Source: Verrucomicrobiota bacterium
GTDB taxonomy: Bacteria > Verrucomicrobiota > Verrucomicrobiia > Opitutales > Opitutaceae
DNA length: 64,000 nucleotides
Assembly: GCA_016871775.1 (NCBI GenBank)
Contig: VHCI01000002.1
Span: 21,506-85,505 of the forward strand
Direction of reading: 5' to 3'
Shown here: piece after piece, positions 39,634 to 49,871 of the stretch
Layout of the letters: each line of letters opens with the position of its first letter
Position numbering within the stretch: the stretch's first letter is position 1
Notes under the pieces: generated by a model
Seen by the model: only the letters and a program-made list of their open reading frames with translations
What the model was told of the DNA's origin: nothing
Databases searched by the model: none
Program-made: the position numbers and the translations under genes

Positions 39634-42489
39634 ATGAGAAATACGCGCGTTTCCCTCCTGCTGCTCGCGGCGCTTGGCTTGGCGGCGTTGGGGGCGGCGC
39701 TGACGCCCGTGGTCCAGTCCGGGATTGTCCGGCAGCTTTTGCGACGCGCGCTCGATCCGGCGGTGGAGCTCGGCTCCGCCCGGATCGGCTGGAACGGAGG
39801 CGTGCGGGTGCGGGAGCTGCGGTGGTGGAATTCATCACTGCGGCTGGCGGTCGCGGAAGCTGAAGTTCGCCTCCGTCCCGCCAGCCTGCTGGGCAAGGGT
39901 AAGCCGAGGTTCCGCACGGTCCTCCTGCGCGGGTGTGTTGTGGAGCCGCTGGCTCCGGTGGGGACCGCGGAAACCTGGCGGGAGCAGCTCCGGGCGGGGC
40001 TAGCGGCGGCCTTGGCCCCGGCGCGCCTCGAGGCGGACGGGGAGATCCGGTTGCTTGCTTCGACCGGGGTGATCGCGTTCCAAGCCGTAGGAGGGGGCGC
40101 GTCTCCCGGTCGTAACCGGGTTTTGCGCGGCGAGTTCAACTTCCGGCCGGAGGGGTCGGTCCTTCCGATCGTGGAGGCAAGGCTTCGGGTGGAGGCAATT
40201 GGTGATGGGGCGGAGGCGTCGCTACGCGCAGAGGGGGTGGCGGCGGTGCGCGGGCAGGGCTGGCCCCGGGACTTGAATGTGGCCGGGGAGCTGACGGAAC
40301 CTCTGGCTGCGGGCGGGGGCGCTTGGGCGCTCCGGGTCCGCGCCGCGGACCGGGAAATCGCGCGGTTCACGGGGACGTCACCGGCCGCGCGGGCGGAGTG
40401 GCGGGGCCGCTGGTGGGCGGATTTCGGCGACGAGGAGCTGGCGCCGTTTTTCCCCGAGCTGCGCCGATCCGGAGACCGCATCTTGGGAGAGGGGCAACTG
40501 AGTTGGTCGCCCGGATCCGGGTTGGTCGCGGTGCGGGGGACGGCCGCAGCGGAACTGGGAGCCTCCGCGCGGGCGCATGCGCTCCTCGCGCGCCTCGGAG
40601 TGACCGGTGGGGACGCGGAATTCGACTTTCGGGCCGGCCCGCGGGTGTGGGCGTTCGAAAGCCTGGCCGTGCGCCTGCGGGCGGGAGGCGCGCCGCCGGT
40701 GCTGCGGCTCACGGCCCGTCAGCCTTGGGCGGTCGACTGGAGGGCGCGCTCCCTCCAAGCGCGGGACCCGGAAGCGGACGTAATCGGTTTGGAGGTAATC
40801 GACTTCACCCTGCCGCCGCTTCCGCTGGGGGGGATCACGCTTGGCGGCGGGCCGATCCGGGGACGTCTGGTCGGCCGGGTCAGCGCGGGCGGTTTGGCGC
40901 TCCGCACGGAGGACGGCCTGCAGGCCTCTGAACTCTTTGTCGTAGCCGGAGAGGGGCGGCGGGTCGGGAATCTGGCTATGACCCTCCAAGGAGGGTTACG
41001 CGTTGCCCCTGAGGGATGGAGCGCGGAAGTGGACGAGATGAGGCTCCGCGGGAACGGGGGAGAGTTCGCGGTGCTCGAGGCGAAGGGCGGGCGCCTGACC
41101 GGCGAGCGGGAATCCTGGAAGGTGGCAGGCCGGGGCCGGGTCGAACTCCCGGCGGCTGTCGCCCTGCTTGCGGGCGGGCGCGGCGGCGTGCTGACGGCGG
41201 GGGTCCTAGAGGTGGACGCGGGTGCGACTGGCGGCACGGTGACGGCGCTCCACGCGCACGTTCGGGCTTCCGGCCTGAGGGCAACGACGGAGTTGCCGGA
41301 CCTGCGGCTCGACGCCCGGGTCGATCGTGAGTACTCGGGGCGGCTGAAGTTCCACGTGCCGCTGGAGGCGGGGTCCGGCCCGAACCTGTCCCGAGTGCTG
41401 CTCGCGGGCGCGTTGGAGCCGGCCGCCAGCGCGGGCGGGCACCTCGAGCTCGAGGTGACGGGGCCGCGACTCGACTTCCCGGCACTGGGGAGATTCCGAC
41501 CGTTGTTCGCCGGCAAGGATCCCGTTCCGGGAAACGCGGCGCCGTGGGCCGGTTGGTCGGGCACCCTGAGGGTCCGGATTGACGAGTTGGTGGCCGAAGC
41601 GGGCGCACCCTGGCGCCAGACAAGGGCGCGACTCCGGTTCGACGAAGCGATGGTGCAGGCGGACGAGCTTGAGTCCGTCCTTGAGGGCGCTGCGAGCCTG
41701 CGGGCGAGCGGGAGCCTGAGCCGCGCGCCGGATGATAACGGAAGCTACCGCCTCCAGGCGGCTGTGGTGCTGCGTGACTGGAGTCCTGGTGGCCACGAGG
41801 GCCAGCCGGGCTGGTTTTCCGGCAAACTCGACCTCGCGGGCTCCCTGCGCTCCCGTGGGACGGACCTTGAGGTCCTGAGGGCGGCGTTGGAGGGAGAGGT
41901 GCATCTGGTCTCGCGCGGCGGGACGCTTCGACTGTTTCCGGTCAACTTGCCGTCCGCGCCCGCGGGTTCCGGCCGGGTGGCTGAGATCCTCGCGGCGGCG
42001 GGAGGCGCGCTAGAGTCGCTAGGCGCGCGCCGCGAGCCCCCGCTGTCGCGCGGCCGAGCGGTAGCGGAACTTTCGTCCGTCCTGCATCCGCTCGCGTTCG
42101 ACCAACTCAGCGTGGTCGCGGCCCGCGATGCCGCCGGCAACATCAGCTTGCGTCACCTCGTGGTGCTCACGCCCGAGCTGCGGCTTACGGGGGGAGGCAA
42201 CCTCCTGGGACAACCGGTGAGTGGCTTTCTCGAAGGCTCCCTGGCCCTCGAACTTCAGCTTCGCGCGCGGGGGCGGCCGGCCGAGTTGCTCCGGGGGCTC
42301 GGGGCGCTCGACGAGGTGCCCGACGAATGGGGTTATGCCGCCGCCGGTTTGCCCCTGCGGGTGCGCGGCTCCCTCGCTCGGCCGGACGCCAGTGATCTGG
42401 GCGTGCGCCTCGCTGCGCTGGCTCTGGAGCGTAACTCGATCTCCGAGCGCGCCGCCGGCTGGTTCAACCGCATCCGCCGGGCAAAATGA
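39634..42489 (+). CDS. AsmA/TamB-like envelope protein
   Basis: 951 aa, single N-terminal TM then repetitive beta-rich sequence; C-term NISLRHLVVLTPELRLTGGGNLLGQPVSGFLEGSLALELQL resembles AsmA_2-like C-terminus. Confidence 0.65.
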   Translation: MRNTRVSLLLLAALGLAALGAALTPVVQSGIVRQLLRRALDPAVELGSARIGWNGGVRVRELRWWNSSLRLAVAEAEVRLRPASLLGKGKPRFRTVLLRGCVVEPLAPVGTAETWREQLRAGLAAALAPARLEADGEIRLLASTGVIAFQAVGGGASPGRNRVLRGEFNFRPEGSVLPIVEARLRVEAIGDGAEASLRAEGVAAVRGQGWPRDLNVAGELTEPLAAGGGAWALRVRAADREIARFTGTSPAARAEWRGRWWADFGDEELAPFFPELRRSGDRILGEGQLSWSPGSGLVAVRGTAAAELGASARAHALLARLGVTGGDAEFDFRAGPRVWAFESLAVRLRAGGAPPVLRLTARQPWAVDWRARSLQARDPEADVIGLEVIDFTLPPLPLGGITLGGGPIRGRLVGRVSAGGLALRTEDGLQASELFVVAGEGRRVGNLAMTLQGGLRVAPEGWSAEVDEMRLRGNGGEFAVLEAKGGRLTGERESWKVAGRGRVELPAAVALLAGGRGGVLTAGVLEVDAGATGGTVTALHAHVRASGLRATTELPDLRLDARVDREYSGRLKFHVPLEAGSGPNLSRVLLAGALEPAASAGGHLELEVTGPRLDFPALGRFRPLFAGKDPVPGNAAPWAGWSGTLRVRIDELVAEAGAPWRQTRARLRFDEAMVQADELESVLEGAASLRASGSLSRAPDDNGSYRLQAAVVLRDWSPGGHEGQPGWFSGKLDLAGSLRSRGTDLEVLRAALEGEVHLVSRGGTLRLFPVNLPSAPAGSGRVAEILAAAGGALESLGARREPPLSRGRAVAELSSVLHPLAFDQLSVVAARDAAGNISLRHLVVLTPELRLTGGGNLLGQPVSGFLEGSLALELQLRARGRPAELLRGLGALDEVPDEWGYAAAGLPLRVRGSLARPDASDLGVRLAALALERNSISERAAGWFNRIRRAK

Positions 42490-42532: not shown

Positions 42533-43519
42533 GTGATCGCGTCCATCGCTTTTCATCGCTTCAAGGCCCTGCGGCAGACGCGCATCGAGCTGCAGCCCTT
42601 TAATCTGGTCATCGGGCCCAACGGCAGCGGGAAAACCAGCCTCATCGAGTCGGTCCTGACCCTGCGGCGGAGGGCGGCGCTGCCGTTGGCCGGGGACCAG
42701 GCGGTGCAGCGTGGCGGGGGGCCGGAGATCGGGTTCGGGTTCGCCCCGCCGCACGCGGCGATCCGCGCCACTTTGGGCTGCGCGGGCGAGGGGCAGTGCG
42801 ATTTCCTGCGAGTGGAACCCGCGGGGGCACCGGAATGGCCCGCGCTCCGGGCCGGGCTGGCGACGGTTCGTGGTTACGCGCTGGAGCACGAGGCGATGAC
42901 GCGGCCGTGCCCGTCGGGCGACGGGGCGGAACTGACGGCGGACGGGGGCAACCTCGCGGCCGTGCTGGTGCAGCTTTGGGAGCACACCCCGGCGGTATTC
43001 GCGGCGCTGCAGAAGGAAGTCCTTCGCCTGCTGCCGGAGTTTTCTTCGCTAGAGGCCGGCCGGGCGCCCTCGGGCGGGTCCACCTTTGGTCTCCGGCTGG
43101 CGGAGGGCGGGGAGCTGCTCGAGGCGGAGGAACTTTCCCAAGGCACGCTTTACGTGGTCGCCCTGCTCGCCATCGCCTTTGATCCGGATCCGCCGCGGAT
43201 CCTCTGTTTGGAGGAGGTGGACCGCGGCGTGCACCCCCGGATGTTCCGTGAGGTGCGGGATGTTCTTTACCGATTGAGCCATCCCCCGGCGGACGCGGGC
43301 CGCGCAGGGGTGCAGGTGATTGCTACGACGCACTCACCGTACTTCATCGACCTGTTCCGGGATCACCCTGAGGAGGTGATCATCTCGCAGAAGACCGGCC
43401 GAGCGGCCACCTTCGAACGCTTGTCGGATCGCCCTGACCTTCCCGAGCTGCTGCGGGAGGGGTCGCTCGGCGAGATGTGGTACAGCGGGATCCTCGGCGG
43501 GGTGCCGGAGGAGCGATGA
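42533..43519 (+). CDS. AAA family ATPase (AAA_21/RecF/OLD-like)
   Basis: IASIAFHRFKALRQTRIELQPFNLVIGPNGSGKTSLIESVL (Walker A); LSQGTLYVVALLAIAFDPDPPRILCLEEVDRGVHPRMFREV (signature + Walker B); QVIATTHSPYFIDLF (H-loop). GTG start at 42533 is a guess (alternative TTG 42515). Confidence 0.88.
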   Translation: MIASIAFHRFKALRQTRIELQPFNLVIGPNGSGKTSLIESVLTLRRRAALPLAGDQAVQRGGGPEIGFGFAPPHAAIRATLGCAGEGQCDFLRVEPAGAPEWPALRAGLATVRGYALEHEAMTRPCPSGDGAELTADGGNLAAVLVQLWEHTPAVFAALQKEVLRLLPEFSSLEAGRAPSGGSTFGLRLAEGGELLEAEELSQGTLYVVALLAIAFDPDPPRILCLEEVDRGVHPRMFREVRDVLYRLSHPPADAGRAGVQVIATTHSPYFIDLFRDHPEEVIISQKTGRAATFERLSDRPDLPELLREGSLGEMWYSGILGGVPEER

Positions 43520-44190
43520 ACGTCGCGCTGCTGAGCGAGTCTCCGGCGGACGAGGCGGCGTTACGGGAACTGGTCACGGGGGTGCTGCGGGTGCGGCCGC
43601 GCTTCATCGCTCCTGGGTTCCGGGCGCGTGGCTGGCCCAACGTGGCCCAACTGCTCCCGGCGGTGATCCGCCACCTGCATTTCAACACCGACGCGGACGC
43701 CCTCGTCGTGGCGGTGGACGCGGATGACTCGGTCGTGCACGGGGAGGCGCACGAGCGTCCAGGATACTTCCATCCCCATTGCCGAATGTGCCACCTGCGG
43801 GCGGTGCACCGGCAGACGACCAAGAAGCTGCCGCCGGCGCGGGGCCGGCAACGCCTGCTTAGGGCCGTGGGCGTGGCGGTGCCGGCGATCGAGGCGTGGT
43901 ACCTGTGCGGGCGGGATTTGGCCGTGACCGAGGAGGCGTGGGTCGAGGGGAACGCGCGGGGGTTGCGCCCCTACAGTCGCGCGGAGCTCAAGCTGAGAGT
44001 CTACGCGACCGACCGCCCGAGCCTCGCGCACGAGATCGAGTGCGCGCTGCGCGAAGTGGAACGGCACCGGGCGGACTCCCGCCGGCTGGAACACGAATTC
44101 CCCGGCTTCGCGGCGCTCGCGGGTGATCTCCGTTCCGTCCGGGACCACCCACCAAACGCGACTCCCGCGGAGCCGCGGCGCCCGCTCTGA
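43516..44190 (+). CDS. TOPRIM/DUF4276-like protein, predicted nuclease partner of the upstream ATPase
   Basis: MNVALLSESPADEAALRELVTGVL; ADALVVAVDADDSVVHGE; VAVPAIEAWYLCGRDLAV; ATGA overlap with ATPase stop. Confidence 0.65.
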   Translation: MNVALLSESPADEAALRELVTGVLRVRPRFIAPGFRARGWPNVAQLLPAVIRHLHFNTDADALVVAVDADDSVVHGEAHERPGYFHPHCRMCHLRAVHRQTTKKLPPARGRQRLLRAVGVAVPAIEAWYLCGRDLAVTEEAWVEGNARGLRPYSRAELKLRVYATDRPSLAHEIECALREVERHRADSRRLEHEFPGFAALAGDLRSVRDHPPNATPAEPRRPL

Positions 44191-44259: not shown

Positions 44260-46485
44260 ATGATCCGCCGCCGATCCTTCCTGCCGCTGCACCTTGAACT
44301 GTTCGCGCATCTGATCGCGCGCCTGCTCTACCGCGTCCGAACCTCCGGTCTCGAGGCCTTTCCTGCGCAGGGTGGCGTCCTAGTGATCGCCAACCACCTC
44401 TCGTACGTCGACGTAGTGGTCTTGCAGCTCGCGTGCCCGCGGCCGATCCGGTTCGTCGCCCACCACTGGCTACGGCGCAACGGCTTCCTGAGCTGGTGCT
44501 TCGAGCAGTCCGGCAGCATCGGGATTTCCGCGGCGCAGCCGCGGGCTGGGATGCACAGTGCGGTCGAGGCGTTGCGGCGCGGCGAGGTGGTCTGCGTGTG
44601 TCCTGAGGGGCACATCTCCCGCACCGGGCAGCTAATGCGGCTGCACCGGGGCTTCGAGGTGATCGCCGGACGCGCGGGGGCGCCGGTGGTGGCGGTGGCC
44701 ATCGATGGACTCTGGGGCTCCATCTTCTCCTTCGCAGGCAACAAGTGCCTGTGGAAATCACCTCGCCTCCTGCCGACGCCCGTGCACGCGGCGTTCGGGC
44801 GCCCGCAGCCCGCGGAGCAGGCCGGCGTGGAGTGGGCACGGCGCGAGCTTCTCGACCTGGGCGAACGGGCTTTCCAAGAGCGGCCGGTGCTCCGCCGCCA
44901 CCTCGGGCGCGAGGCCGTCCGCGCGCTCGCGAAGCAGCCGGGGCGCGTGCTGGTCATCGATCGGACGGCCGACCGCCGGGTGCTTTCGTGCGCCCAGATT
45001 TACGCCGCGGCGGCGCTGCTCTCCCGGCGCCTCCGCGCGCGGGTGCCCGGCCGGCGGGTCGGGATCGTGCTGCCGCCGGGCGCCGGCGGCTTCATCGCCA
45101 ACCTCGCGGTGGTGATGGCCGGCAAGGTGCCCGTGAACCTCAACTTCACCGCGGGTCGCGACGCTGTCCTCACCAGCCTGCGGATCGCGGGCATCGAGAC
45201 GGTGCTCTCCGCCAAAGCGATGCAGGAGAAGTTGCCGGCGTTTCCTTGGCCTGCCGGGACGCTGGATCTCCGCGCCGAGATCGAGGCCGCGGGTGGGCGT
45301 CGCGCGATGGCGCCGTGGTTGCTCGCCGCGTGGCTGTTACCCAATCAGGTGTGCGCAAACTTGCTCGGCCTGCCGCGGGCCGGCGATCGCGAGGAGGCCG
45401 GGTTGCTCTTTACCAGCGGGAGCTCCGGCGAGCCGAAGGGCGTAGTGCTCACGCACCGCAACATCCTCGCCAACTGCCTGCAGATCTCCTCCCTCTCGAT
45501 CCTTCCCGAGAGCTGCTCGGTGCTCGGCTGCCTCCCGATCTTTCACAGCTTCGGCTTCACCGTCACGCTATGGTATCCGATCCTCCGCGGCAGCCGCGTG
45601 GTCACCGTGCCCAGCCCGCTCGACACCCGGCGCATCATCGACGCGATCGCGGCCGAGCAGGTGCGGGTGATGGTCGGCGCGCCGACTTTCATCCGTCCGA
45701 TCCTCAAGAAGGCGCAGCCCGCGGAACTGCGCTCTCTCGATCTTGTTGTCACGGGCGCCGAGCGGCTGCCCGATGACCTGCAGGCGGATTTCCTGCGGCA
45801 GTTCCACATCGACATCCAGCAGGGGTACGGCCTGACCGAGACCGCGCCGGCCACGAACATCAACCAGCCGCACCCGCCGGTGATCTTTTCCACCAACGAG
45901 CCGCAGGAGGGTAAGCGCTCCGGGGCGGTGGGGCGCCTGCTGCCCGGCCTGACCGCGCGCATCGTCGATCCGGAGACGATGGAGGAGCGCCCCGAGACCA
46001 CCACCGGCCTCATTTTGCTGCGGGGCGCCAACGTTTTCGAGGGCTACCTCGACGATCCCGGCAAAACCCGGCAAGCGTTCTGCCGCGGCTGGTTCGTCAC
46101 GGGCGACCTCGGGCGGTTCGATGAGGACGGGTTTCTTTACATCGAAGGCCGGCTATCGCGCTTCTCAAAGATCGCCGGCGAGATGGTGCCCCACGGAACG
46201 GTCGAGATGCGCATCGTGGAGGCTTTCAGCTGGGACCAGTCGGAGCAACCTGTGGTGTACGTCACGGGCATTCCTGACCAAGCGAAGGGCGAGGCGCTGG
46301 TGCTGCTGACCACCGAGGCGGTGACGCTGGAGCAGTTGCGGGCGCGGCTCGCGGAGCGAGGGCTACCCAACCTCTGGGTCCCCAAGATCATTCACCGGGT
46401 GGAACGAATTCCGATGCTCGGCACCGGCAAGACGGACCTCAAGCAGTGTCGCGAGCTCGCGCTGCACGCAGTCAAGGGCGGCTAG
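44260..46485 (+). CDS. Fused 1-acylglycerol-phosphate acyltransferase (PlsC-like) + AMP-dependent acyl-CoA/ACP synthetase
   Basis: PlsC motif NHLSYVD and VCPEGHISRTG; AMP-binding motif LLFTSGSSGEPKGVVLTHRNI; QQGYGLTETAPATNIN; FVTGDLGRFDEDGFLYIEGR. Confidence 0.93.
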   Translation: MIRRRSFLPLHLELFAHLIARLLYRVRTSGLEAFPAQGGVLVIANHLSYVDVVVLQLACPRPIRFVAHHWLRRNGFLSWCFEQSGSIGISAAQPRAGMHSAVEALRRGEVVCVCPEGHISRTGQLMRLHRGFEVIAGRAGAPVVAVAIDGLWGSIFSFAGNKCLWKSPRLLPTPVHAAFGRPQPAEQAGVEWARRELLDLGERAFQERPVLRRHLGREAVRALAKQPGRVLVIDRTADRRVLSCAQIYAAAALLSRRLRARVPGRRVGIVLPPGAGGFIANLAVVMAGKVPVNLNFTAGRDAVLTSLRIAGIETVLSAKAMQEKLPAFPWPAGTLDLRAEIEAAGGRRAMAPWLLAAWLLPNQVCANLLGLPRAGDREEAGLLFTSGSSGEPKGVVLTHRNILANCLQISSLSILPESCSVLGCLPIFHSFGFTVTLWYPILRGSRVVTVPSPLDTRRIIDAIAAEQVRVMVGAPTFIRPILKKAQPAELRSLDLVVTGAERLPDDLQADFLRQFHIDIQQGYGLTETAPATNINQPHPPVIFSTNEPQEGKRSGAVGRLLPGLTARIVDPETMEERPETTTGLILLRGANVFEGYLDDPGKTRQAFCRGWFVTGDLGRFDEDGFLYIEGRLSRFSKIAGEMVPHGTVEMRIVEAFSWDQSEQPVVYVTGIPDQAKGEALVLLTTEAVTLEQLRARLAERGLPNLWVPKIIHRVERIPMLGTGKTDLKQCRELALHAVKGG

Positions 46486-47251: not shown

Positions 47252-48349
47252 TCAGCGCACCACCCGCGCGCCGCCGCCGCCGACCTGCTTCTCCACCTCT
47301 CCGCGCGTCGCCATCGAGGTGTCGCCGGGCGTCGTGGAGGCCAGCGCGCCGTGGGCCGCGCCGTAGTCGACCGCCTTTTGCGCGTCGTTGAACTCTAGGA
47401 ACCCGAACTGCAGGCCCGACGCGAAGCTGTCGCCGCCGCCGACCCGGTCGAGGATCTCGAGCTCCGGGTAAAGCCGGCTGGCGTGGAATTTACCCTCGTG
47501 CCAGAGGAGGGCTGACCAGTCGTTGCGGGTGGCGGTGATGACGCGGCGCAGGGTGGTCGCCGCCACTTTAAAGTTGGGAAACTCGCGCACCGCGGTAGCG
47601 ATCATCTCCTGGAACGCCTCGGTCTCGATTCGGGATAGGCGGTGGTCCGCTCCTCGTACCTCGAAGCCGAGGGAGGCGGTAAAGTCCTCCTCGTTGCCGA
47701 TCATCACGTCCACGTGGCGGGCGATCTCGCGGTTGACTTCCTGGGCCTTGCGCAACCCCCCGATCGCCTTCCAGAGGGACGGGCGGTAGTTCAGGTCGTA
47801 ACTGACGATCACGCCGTGGCGCTTGGCGGCCTGGACCGCCTCGGTCGCGAGCGCGGCGGTCGAGGCCGAGAGCGCGGCGAAGATGCCCCCGGTGTGGAAC
47901 CAGCGCGCGCCGAGCTGACCGAAGATGCGGTCCCAGTCGAAGTCCCCAGGCTTGAGCTGCGAGGCGGCGGTGTTGCCGCGGTCGGAATTGCCCACCGCTC
48001 CGCGGATGCCAAAGCCGCGCTCGGTAAAGTTGAGGCCGTTGCGCACGGTGCGGCCGATGCCGTCGTCCTCGCGCCAGCGGATGAAGTCGGTCGCGACGCC
48101 CCCTTGCAGGATGCAGTCCTCGACCAGGTGCCCAACCTCGTTGTCGACAAAACCGGTACAGACGGCGGTGCGGAGGCCAAAGCACTTCCGCAGCCCCCGC
48201 GACGTGTTGTACTCGCCGCCACCCTCCCAGACTTTGAATTCGCGGGCGGTGCGGATGCGTCCCTCGCCGGGATCGAGGCGTAACATCACTTCCCCGAGCG
48301 AGATTTGATCGAAGGCCGTGGAGCCGGCCGGTTTGAGGGGAAGGCTCAT
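47252..48349 (-). CDS. PfkB family sugar kinase (2-keto-3-deoxygluconate kinase-like)
   Basis: GEVMLRLDPGEGRIRTAREFKVWEGGGEYNTSRGLRKCFGLRTAV; ILDRVGGGDSFASGLQFGFLEFN. Confidence 0.88.
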   Translation of the reverse strand: MSLPLKPAGSTAFDQISLGEVMLRLDPGEGRIRTAREFKVWEGGGEYNTSRGLRKCFGLRTAVCTGFVDNEVGHLVEDCILQGGVATDFIRWREDDGIGRTVRNGLNFTERGFGIRGAVGNSDRGNTAASQLKPGDFDWDRIFGQLGARWFHTGGIFAALSASTAALATEAVQAAKRHGVIVSYDLNYRPSLWKAIGGLRKAQEVNREIARHVDVMIGNEEDFTASLGFEVRGADHRLSRIETEAFQEMIATAVREFPNFKVAATTLRRVITATRNDWSALLWHEGKFHASRLYPELEILDRVGGGDSFASGLQFGFLEFNDAQKAVDYGAAHGALASTTPGDTSMATRGEVEKQVGGGGARVVR

Positions 48350-48635
48350 GGCGGAAGTCAGGGAAGGTTAGGAGGCGAGGGTAGCGCCGGTCAACCCGTT
48401 GCGTGGGCTTGTCTGGCTGGGTCGGCGGATGTCCCACCCCCGGGGTAGGATGAGGGAATGATCCAAGCTTCCTCCCGTCGTACCGGTTTCGGCCTTTGGG
48501 ATTCCCACCGCCAAGTGGCCCGTCGCCAGCAGCGTATCCGCGACGAGGCGGAGCAGGTCCCGCCCGGTCTCGATGAGGCTCCGGCGCTGCCGCCGCTGGA
48601 GCCGCAGGTCTGGCCCCCCGCAACTTGGCGGCGGG

Positions 48636-48727
48636 AGCAGCGGCCTATGGCCGCCTAAAGCGGCGGGGCGGGGCGAGGGTCTGCTCTTGACCCGCCGGCC
48701 CGCCGGCGGCGAGCCTCGCCGGTCCTA
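48636..48727. repeat. Cluster of short perfect inverted repeats (REP-like or operator) between divergent kinase genes
   Basis: gcggcc-tat-ggccgc (48640-48654), ccgccggc-cc-gccggcgg (48692-48709), ggcgag-c-ctcgcc (48708-48720). Confidence 0.5.
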
Positions 48728-48788
48728 CGAGATGCAGGCGGCCCGGCACTCCGCAGAGCTCTTCGATCCAATACCTTCCCGGCAGACT

Positions 48789-49871
48789 ATGAACCACGGT
48801 CTCAATCTCCGTTCCTCTGGCACCCTCGACTTCGTGTCGCTGGGCGCCCTGATCCATCGCCTCGACCCAGGCATCATCCCCTTCCGGAAGGCGAACCATT
48901 GCGACATCCACGTCAGTGGCGGTGAGTTCAACGTCGCGGCGAACCTCGCGGATTGCTTCCGGCTCAACACCGGCGTGGTCTCCGCGATGGTCGACTATCC
49001 GATCGGCGACCTGATCGCGGAGCGGGTGCGGGCGATGGGGGTGAGGTCGTTCTACAAGCGCTTCAAGCACGACGGCGTCCGGGGACCGAACATGGCCACG
49101 GTGTACAGTGACCGCGGCCAAGGCGTGCGCGCGCCGGTCGTGTTTTACAACCGCAGCAACGAGGCGGCGGCGCAGCTCAAGCCGGGCGATTTCAACTGGA
49201 GCCAGATCTTTGGTTCCGGTGTGCGCTGGTTCCACAGCGGCGGTATCTTCGCGGCGCTCTCCGAGACCACGGGAGAACTGATCGTCGAGGCGATGCAGGC
49301 CGCCAAGGCAGCCGGGGCCGTGACCTCCTTCGACCTCAACTACCGTGCGAAGCTCTGGGACATCTGGGGCGGCCAGTCCAAGGCCCTCGACGTGCTCGGC
49401 CGCATCGTCCGGAACGTCGACGTGCTGGTGGGCAACGAGGAGGACCTGCAGAAGGGCCTCGGCATCGAGGGGCAGGACGTGGAGTCGAAGTCCAAGCTCG
49501 ATCCCTCCGCCTTCTTCGCGCTGATTGAGAAGGCCGTGCGCAAGTTCCCCAACGTGAAGGCGGTTGCCACCACCCTGCGGGAAGTCCACTCGACAAACCG
49601 CCACAGCTGGGGCGCGGTCGCTTGGATGAAGGGCCAGACCTACCAGTCCCCGACCTGTGAGCTCGACGTGGTGGACCGCGTCGGCGGCGGCGACGGTTAC
49701 GCCGCGGGCTTCATCTACGGGCTGCTCGCTGGGGCCTCGGAGCAGGAGGCGGTGAATCTGGGTTGGTCCCACGGGGCGCTGCTGACCACGTTCCCCGGCG
49801 ACACCACGATGGCGACGGTCGAGCAGGTGCAGGCCTTCGCCAAAGGCGGCTCCGCGCGCATCCAACGCTGA
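48789..49871 (+). CDS. PfkB family sugar kinase (KDG kinase-like), divergent paralogue
   Basis: VSLGALIHRLDPGIIPFRKANHCDIHVSGGEFNVAANLADCFRLNTGVV; LDVVDRVGGGDGYAAGFIYGLLAG. Confidence 0.88.
   Translation: MNHGLNLRSSGTLDFVSLGALIHRLDPGIIPFRKANHCDIHVSGGEFNVAANLADCFRLNTGVVSAMVDYPIGDLIAERVRAMGVRSFYKRFKHDGVRGPNMATVYSDRGQGVRAPVVFYNRSNEAAAQLKPGDFNWSQIFGSGVRWFHSGGIFAALSETTGELIVEAMQAAKAAGAVTSFDLNYRAKLWDIWGGQSKALDVLGRIVRNVDVLVGNEEDLQKGLGIEGQDVESKSKLDPSAFFALIEKAVRKFPNVKAVATTLREVHSTNRHSWGAVAWMKGQTYQSPTCELDVVDRVGGGDGYAAGFIYGLLAGASEQEAVNLGWSHGALLTTFPGDTTMATVEQVQAFAKGGSARIQR

Follow-up and report, generated by a model that had tools for sequence, protein, structure and literature searches.

The window analyzed here, a 64,000-nucleotide stretch of the genome of a bacterium of the family Opitutaceae (Verrucomicrobiota), contains two overlapping genes, the first coding for an ABC/AAA_21-type ATPase and the second for a small partner protein with a putative TOPRIM-like fold. 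The genes, their bordering neighbors and the conserved residues of their products are listed below; conservation was counted over 39 orthologues for the ATPase and over a 57-row alignment of low diversity (Neff about 1.9) for the partner.

39634 to 42489, plus strand: AsmA-like gene (so named in a preliminary description of the sequence), upstream border of the site and ancestral neighbor
42533 to 43519, plus strand: ABC/AAA_21-type ATPase gene, GTG start, 328 aa
42614 to 42640, plus strand: Walker A, GPNGSGKTS (residues 28 to 36); G28, P29, S32, G33 and K34 invariant in the 39 orthologues
43133 to 43150, plus strand: ABC signature, LSQGTL (residues 201 to 206); Q203 and G204 invariant
43205 to 43222, plus strand: Walker B, CLEEVD (residues 225 to 230); E227 in 39/39, E228 in 38/39, D230 in 38/39
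43322 to 43342, plus strand: switch/H-loop, ATTHSPY (residues 264 to 270); T265 and S268-P269 nearly invariant, the histidine being H in 33/39
43516 to 44190, plus strand: putative TOPRIM-like (DUF4276/HEC-01B-related) partner gene, ATG start, 224 aa
43537 to 43539, plus strand: E8, candidate metal ligand right after strand 1 (residues 2 to 7), 57/57
43717 to 43728, plus strand: D68-x-D70-D71 at the end of the strand of residues 62 to 68; D68 and D70 57/57, D71 56/57
43738 to 43791, plus strand: H75, then H79-x6-H86-x2-C89-x2-C92, candidate zinc site in an insertion, 57/57
43891 to 43899, plus strand: E126-x-W128 (IEAWYL), after the strand of residues 116 to 122, 57/57
44260 to 46485, plus strand: acyltransferase and AMP-ligase gene (AAS, Aas-like), downstream border, PF01553 and PF00501

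The preliminary description had placed two ORFs, an ATGA overlap between them and a set of named motifs at this locus, and all of these are present in the sequence: the ORFs share the four bases ATGA (43516 to 43519); LSQGTL, Walker A, CLEEVD and the H-loop lie in the 328-aa ORF; and LLSESPAD, VDADDS and IEAWYL lie at residues 5 to 12, 67 to 72 and 125 to 130 of the 224-aa partner. The frames of both genes are open in orthologues at about 100 loci (about 80 public loci plus genome matches), most of which also keep the GTG start and the ATGA overlap. Against close relatives, dN/dS is 0.08 to 0.12 for the ATPase and 0.08 to 0.23 for the partner, falling between about 0.05 for AAS, the gene downstream, and 0.21 to 0.26 for the fast-evolving AsmA-like gene; the pair is thus under purifying selection as in ordinary genes. 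These ratios, the conserved frames and the invariant catalytic-type residues together indicate that neither ORF is a product of chance. A foreign composition can be ruled out, since both GC and GC3 of the pair resemble those of its neighbors.

The ATPase matches the Pfam domain PF13304 (E = 1.5e-27), and its best PADLOC model is HEC-01A (PDLC04177, E = 8.7e-39). AriA and AbiLi are weaker matches. An AF2 model (pLDDT 92) has PtuA and SMC-type heads as its top Foldseek matches, so that the ABC ATPase head typical of the OLD family is present by Pfam match, model and structural comparison alike. The model has no long coiled coil, in agreement with the earlier description of a small ATPase lacking one; the open frames of HEC-01A/DUF4276-linked ATPase relatives are mostly 370 to 440 aa in length.

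The partner matches no Pfam, NCBIfam or PHROGs model, and Pfam DUF4276 (PF14103) does not match it at E ≤ 1. In PADLOC, the window protein has a single weak match, to HEC-01B (E = 0.014); among its orthologues the best E value for this model is 1.6e-5, and 30 of the 57 match at E ≤ 1. Profile-profile comparison (hhalign) gave E values of 7.9e-5 for HEC-01B, 1.1e-4 over 189 columns for the partner of a sister pair (L205, described below) and 2e-3 for a small DUF4276 set, with 24 column-shuffled control alignments scoring 0.024 to 0.73. The alignment to HEC-01B/DUF4276 is weak but colinear, and the E-x-W of the partner occupies the same place as in HEC-01B/DUF4276 and in the sister family. A glutamate, then D-x-D, then a second glutamate after successive strands is the order expected of TOPRIM-type nucleases, and the acids and predicted strands of the partner follow it in both the 57-row alignment and the AF2 model (pLDDT 90). 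Foldseek searches of PDB and BFVD with this model gave no significant match, the best in BFVD being an RloB-like protein (E = 7e-3), and searching PDB sequences with the profile of the partner found no TOPRIM match. The predicted strands and acids thus come in the right order for the TOPRIM-like fold proposed in the preliminary description; as Foldseek did not confirm the fold, we only infer it, and the partner is a candidate nuclease. The residues H79, H86, C89 and C92 are absent from the relatives examined, only H75 having a counterpart in the sister family. Given their absence from the L205 partner, we regard them as a family-specific addition, possibly a structural zinc site.

To place the pair among its relatives, ATPases of the phylum were gathered with the HEC-01A model. 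A DUF4276-type ORF lies directly downstream of the ATPase in 23 of 28 loci tested, as well as in L207 and L208, indicating that the partner occupies the DUF4276 position. In the ATPase tree the Opitutaceae proteins form one clade, whose sister is the ATPase of the L205 pair (support 0.998), which is about the same size. The L205 pair is located between the DNA polymerase III alpha and pyruvate kinase genes in another Verrucomicrobiota family. Its partner protein has no convincing family match and possesses the D-x-D-x4-H and E-x-W elements; it differs from the Opitutaceae partner in lacking the H79/H86/C89/C92 motif, and the L205 pair is patchy, being found in 7 of 68 genomes of its own family. 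DUF4276 proper is patchy as well, with 10 carriers among 115 genomes from the phylum. As far as family resemblance goes, the split ABC-ATPase and TOPRIM/DUF4276-like pair proposed earlier is thus supported, by the HEC-01A match of the ATPase and the profile-profile match of the partner to HEC-01B. As in HEC-01 (HEC-01A ATPase and HEC-01B DUF4276-type protein), the two genes are adjacent and overlapping in the same order, and the acids and E-x-W of the partner follow in the same sequence. However, in addition to the weakness of the partner match and the His/Cys insertion, the ATPase is shorter (about 330 aa versus mostly 360 to 460 model positions), and the Opitutaceae pair is vertical and fixed rather than patchy.

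The pair is nearly always at one site, between the AsmA-like gene (which has no Pfam match at 1e-5) and AAS; of 62 long loci, 57 have AAS as a conserved neighbor. Ancestrally, the genes were arranged as RND-TolC-AsmA-(polyamine transporter genes)-ATPase-partner-AAS-GlcD-like. The AsmA-AAS interval is a spot that tolerates insertion, with a MarR-type gene among those that have entered it. In L053, L073, L161 and L170 to L173, the interval holds further genes, including a cluster of the polyamine ABC transporter type. Annotation of the neighbors bears out the earlier remark that they are of housekeeping type, without mobile-element hallmarks: there are no defense-like genes among the named neighbors. 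A check for a retron-like ncRNA component gave no Rfam match in the window. The preliminary description had also held that fixed synteny with the AsmA and acyltransferase genes would speak for an envelope role and against defense. Such synteny is largely what we found, but it does not by itself imply an envelope role, because other genes enter the interval and the pair is cleanly absent in independent lineages.

A single copy of the pair is found in 28 of 37 sampled Opitutaceae genomes and in 26 of 27 genomes of the same genus. There is no credible match to it in 351 other Verrucomicrobiota genomes, and three genomes from other classes gave weak matches to the profile (E = 0.006 to 0.009, about 35 residues) that were judged to be due to chance. 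The partner likewise has no match in plasmids, phages or IMG/VR viral contigs. Tree distances of the ATPase and the partner correlate with those of AAS (Mantel r of 0.73 and 0.68, respectively). In the AAS tree, the noncarriers G485, G402 and three g34 genomes nest among carriers, and for the sampled genomes on this tree a Fitch count of four changes resolves into one gain and three losses, in favor of which repeated insertion at the site was ruled out. In the empty sites of L159 and L163 the AsmA-AAS gap measures 90 to 105 bp, as against 1740 bp in L164, a carrier that shares its genus with L163. In all 11 genomes that lack the partner, an orthologue of the ATPase is missing too (the incomplete G016 has distant ATPases only); both genes are gained and lost together. 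In one genome (L062 and L217), the ATPase is at another place and both genes are kept though unlinked, which argues for joint work in trans. In the L056 genome, a possibly incomplete MAG, the partner has its conserved residues intact and no orthologous ATPase was found; this is either an exception or an assembly gap.

The pair is therefore a vertically inherited, single-copy, ordinary chromosomal part across Opitutaceae. The losses, at least three in number, indicate that it is dispensable rather than essential to the family; they would also fit a defense gene. Single copy, one site and vertical pattern rule out a mobile cassette, and the first description of the pair as a candidate defense system, in the usual sense of something patchy and mobile, is not supported. 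Patchiness, mobility and residence in defense islands, which are usual for defense systems though not strictly defining, are not seen here. This family-wide pattern strengthens the aside in the same description that the pair might represent a repurposed core function.

The well-studied bacterial relatives of the pair act in defense and, to our knowledge, OLD-type pairs of ATPase and nuclease have been described in bacteria almost exclusively as antiphage systems of patchy distribution. Our literature searches found no paper naming DUF4276, nor one naming HEC-01 together with PADLOC. Unlike OLD classes 1 to 3, the Opitutaceae system consists of two separate ORFs, with no fused C-terminal TOPRIM. 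A comparable split of an ABC ATPase and a TOPRIM nuclease into two genes is found in PARIS (OLD class 4), where AriA is the ATPase sensor of phage trigger proteins and AriB the TOPRIM effector nuclease, a two-metal-ion tRNase (PMC12409363). However, the AriA match here is a general ATPase match, and the partner has no AriB or DUF4435 match among Pfam and PADLOC models. The MADS genes mad3 and mad4 offer another parallel (MAD3, E = 1.7e-28; mad4 matches weak, at best 0.0053 among the orthologues), but the MAD3 score, at 99.9 bits, is far under the NCBI cutoff of 420, and MADS partner genes are missing from the annotated neighborhood. A parallel in inheritance is provided by Cran1 (OLD class 5), an OLD-type enzyme vertically conserved across the whole of Sulfolobales and apparently not antiviral, whose nuclease depends on its own ATPase domain (PMC12796447). 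Cran1 differs in being a single fused, archaeal and apparently essential protein, whereas the Opitutaceae pair is split, bacterial, dispensable and of putative function.

Taking these findings together, we propose, with somewhat better than even confidence, that the pair is a split OLD-like ATP-gated nuclease that has been domesticated into the vertical core of Opitutaceae. It would descend from the HEC-01/DUF4276 group of ATPase and TOPRIM pairs, have been acquired a single time in the Opitutaceae lineage, at the site between the AsmA-like gene and AAS, and have passed on vertically ever since as a core pair that is dispensable and present in one copy. The ABC-type ATPase is predicted to gate the partner, a small TOPRIM-like and probably two-metal-type nuclease, through ATP binding or hydrolysis and dimerization. 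Such a pair would have a standing role in the cell, in the maintenance of nucleic acids or the response to stress, and not act as a mobile antiphage system. It is quite possible, though somewhat short of an even chance, that it is now a standing machine that maintains the chromosome or RNA and whose TOPRIM subunit has gained a new zinc-type insertion, that is, a bacterial two-gene counterpart of Cran1. What is new here is that the pair is a single-copy, vertical, fixed-site family trait and not a patchy defense cassette. This makes it a natural system for asking if OLD-type machines are recruited for everyday cellular tasks, as has been reported in one order of archaea, or, alternatively, if an innate immune locus is kept at a fixed site in some bacterial families. 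As the sample includes closed genomes of carriers (e.g., G029 and G030), the question can be tested directly in any cultured strain that is open to manipulation.

The second of these alternatives, a vertically fixed antiphage system providing innate immunity at one site by abortive infection or nuclease defense (HEC-01/PARIS/AbiL-like), is a serious contender, if somewhat short of an even chance. We give it this weight because the closest bacterial relatives are defense or candidate defense genes: the ATPase is nearest to the HEC-01A, PDC-M07A, MAD3 and AriA models, and both the L205 pair and DUF4276 are patchy, as defense genes are. Its dispensability, with three losses, points the same way. 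Against this stand the single copy at one site, passed on vertically with no sign of transfer, the want of defense-like genes among the named neighbors and a purifying selection like that of ordinary genes; and an inheritance pattern of the Cran1 kind leads us to slightly favor the standing role over fixed innate immunity.

That the partner has ceased to be a nuclease and now serves as an adaptor that binds metal or nucleotides and carries a zinc motif is unlikely: its added His/Cys motif, weak family match and lack of a TOPRIM fold match could be so explained, but the four candidate catalytic acids are all invariant (57/57). A still less likely reading is a toxin-antitoxin-like module in which a TOPRIM toxin is restrained by the ATPase and kept by addiction. 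AAA ATPase and TOPRIM_OLD pairs, AbiL included, have been set in a toxin-antitoxin network (PMC10440598), and the overlap of the genes and their joint loss would suit such a module; however, in L056 and L062 no ATPase is linked to the partner gene, clean losses are tolerated and there is no mobility. Finally, the RND, TolC, AsmA-like and Aas-like neighbors, present across much of the family, might suggest that the pair regulates an envelope function of the two bordering genes, such as lipid transport or remodeling. This we consider very improbable, as a polyamine-transporter-type cluster often separates AsmA from the pair and other genes separate AAS, the same two genes occur cleanly without the pair between them in several genomes, the ATPase lies elsewhere in the L062 genome and both protein families are of nucleic-acid type rather than lipid type.

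Farther along the window (47252 to 49871), two divergently transcribed PfkB-family kinase genes were found, with a mutual similarity of about 44% (cross-hits).
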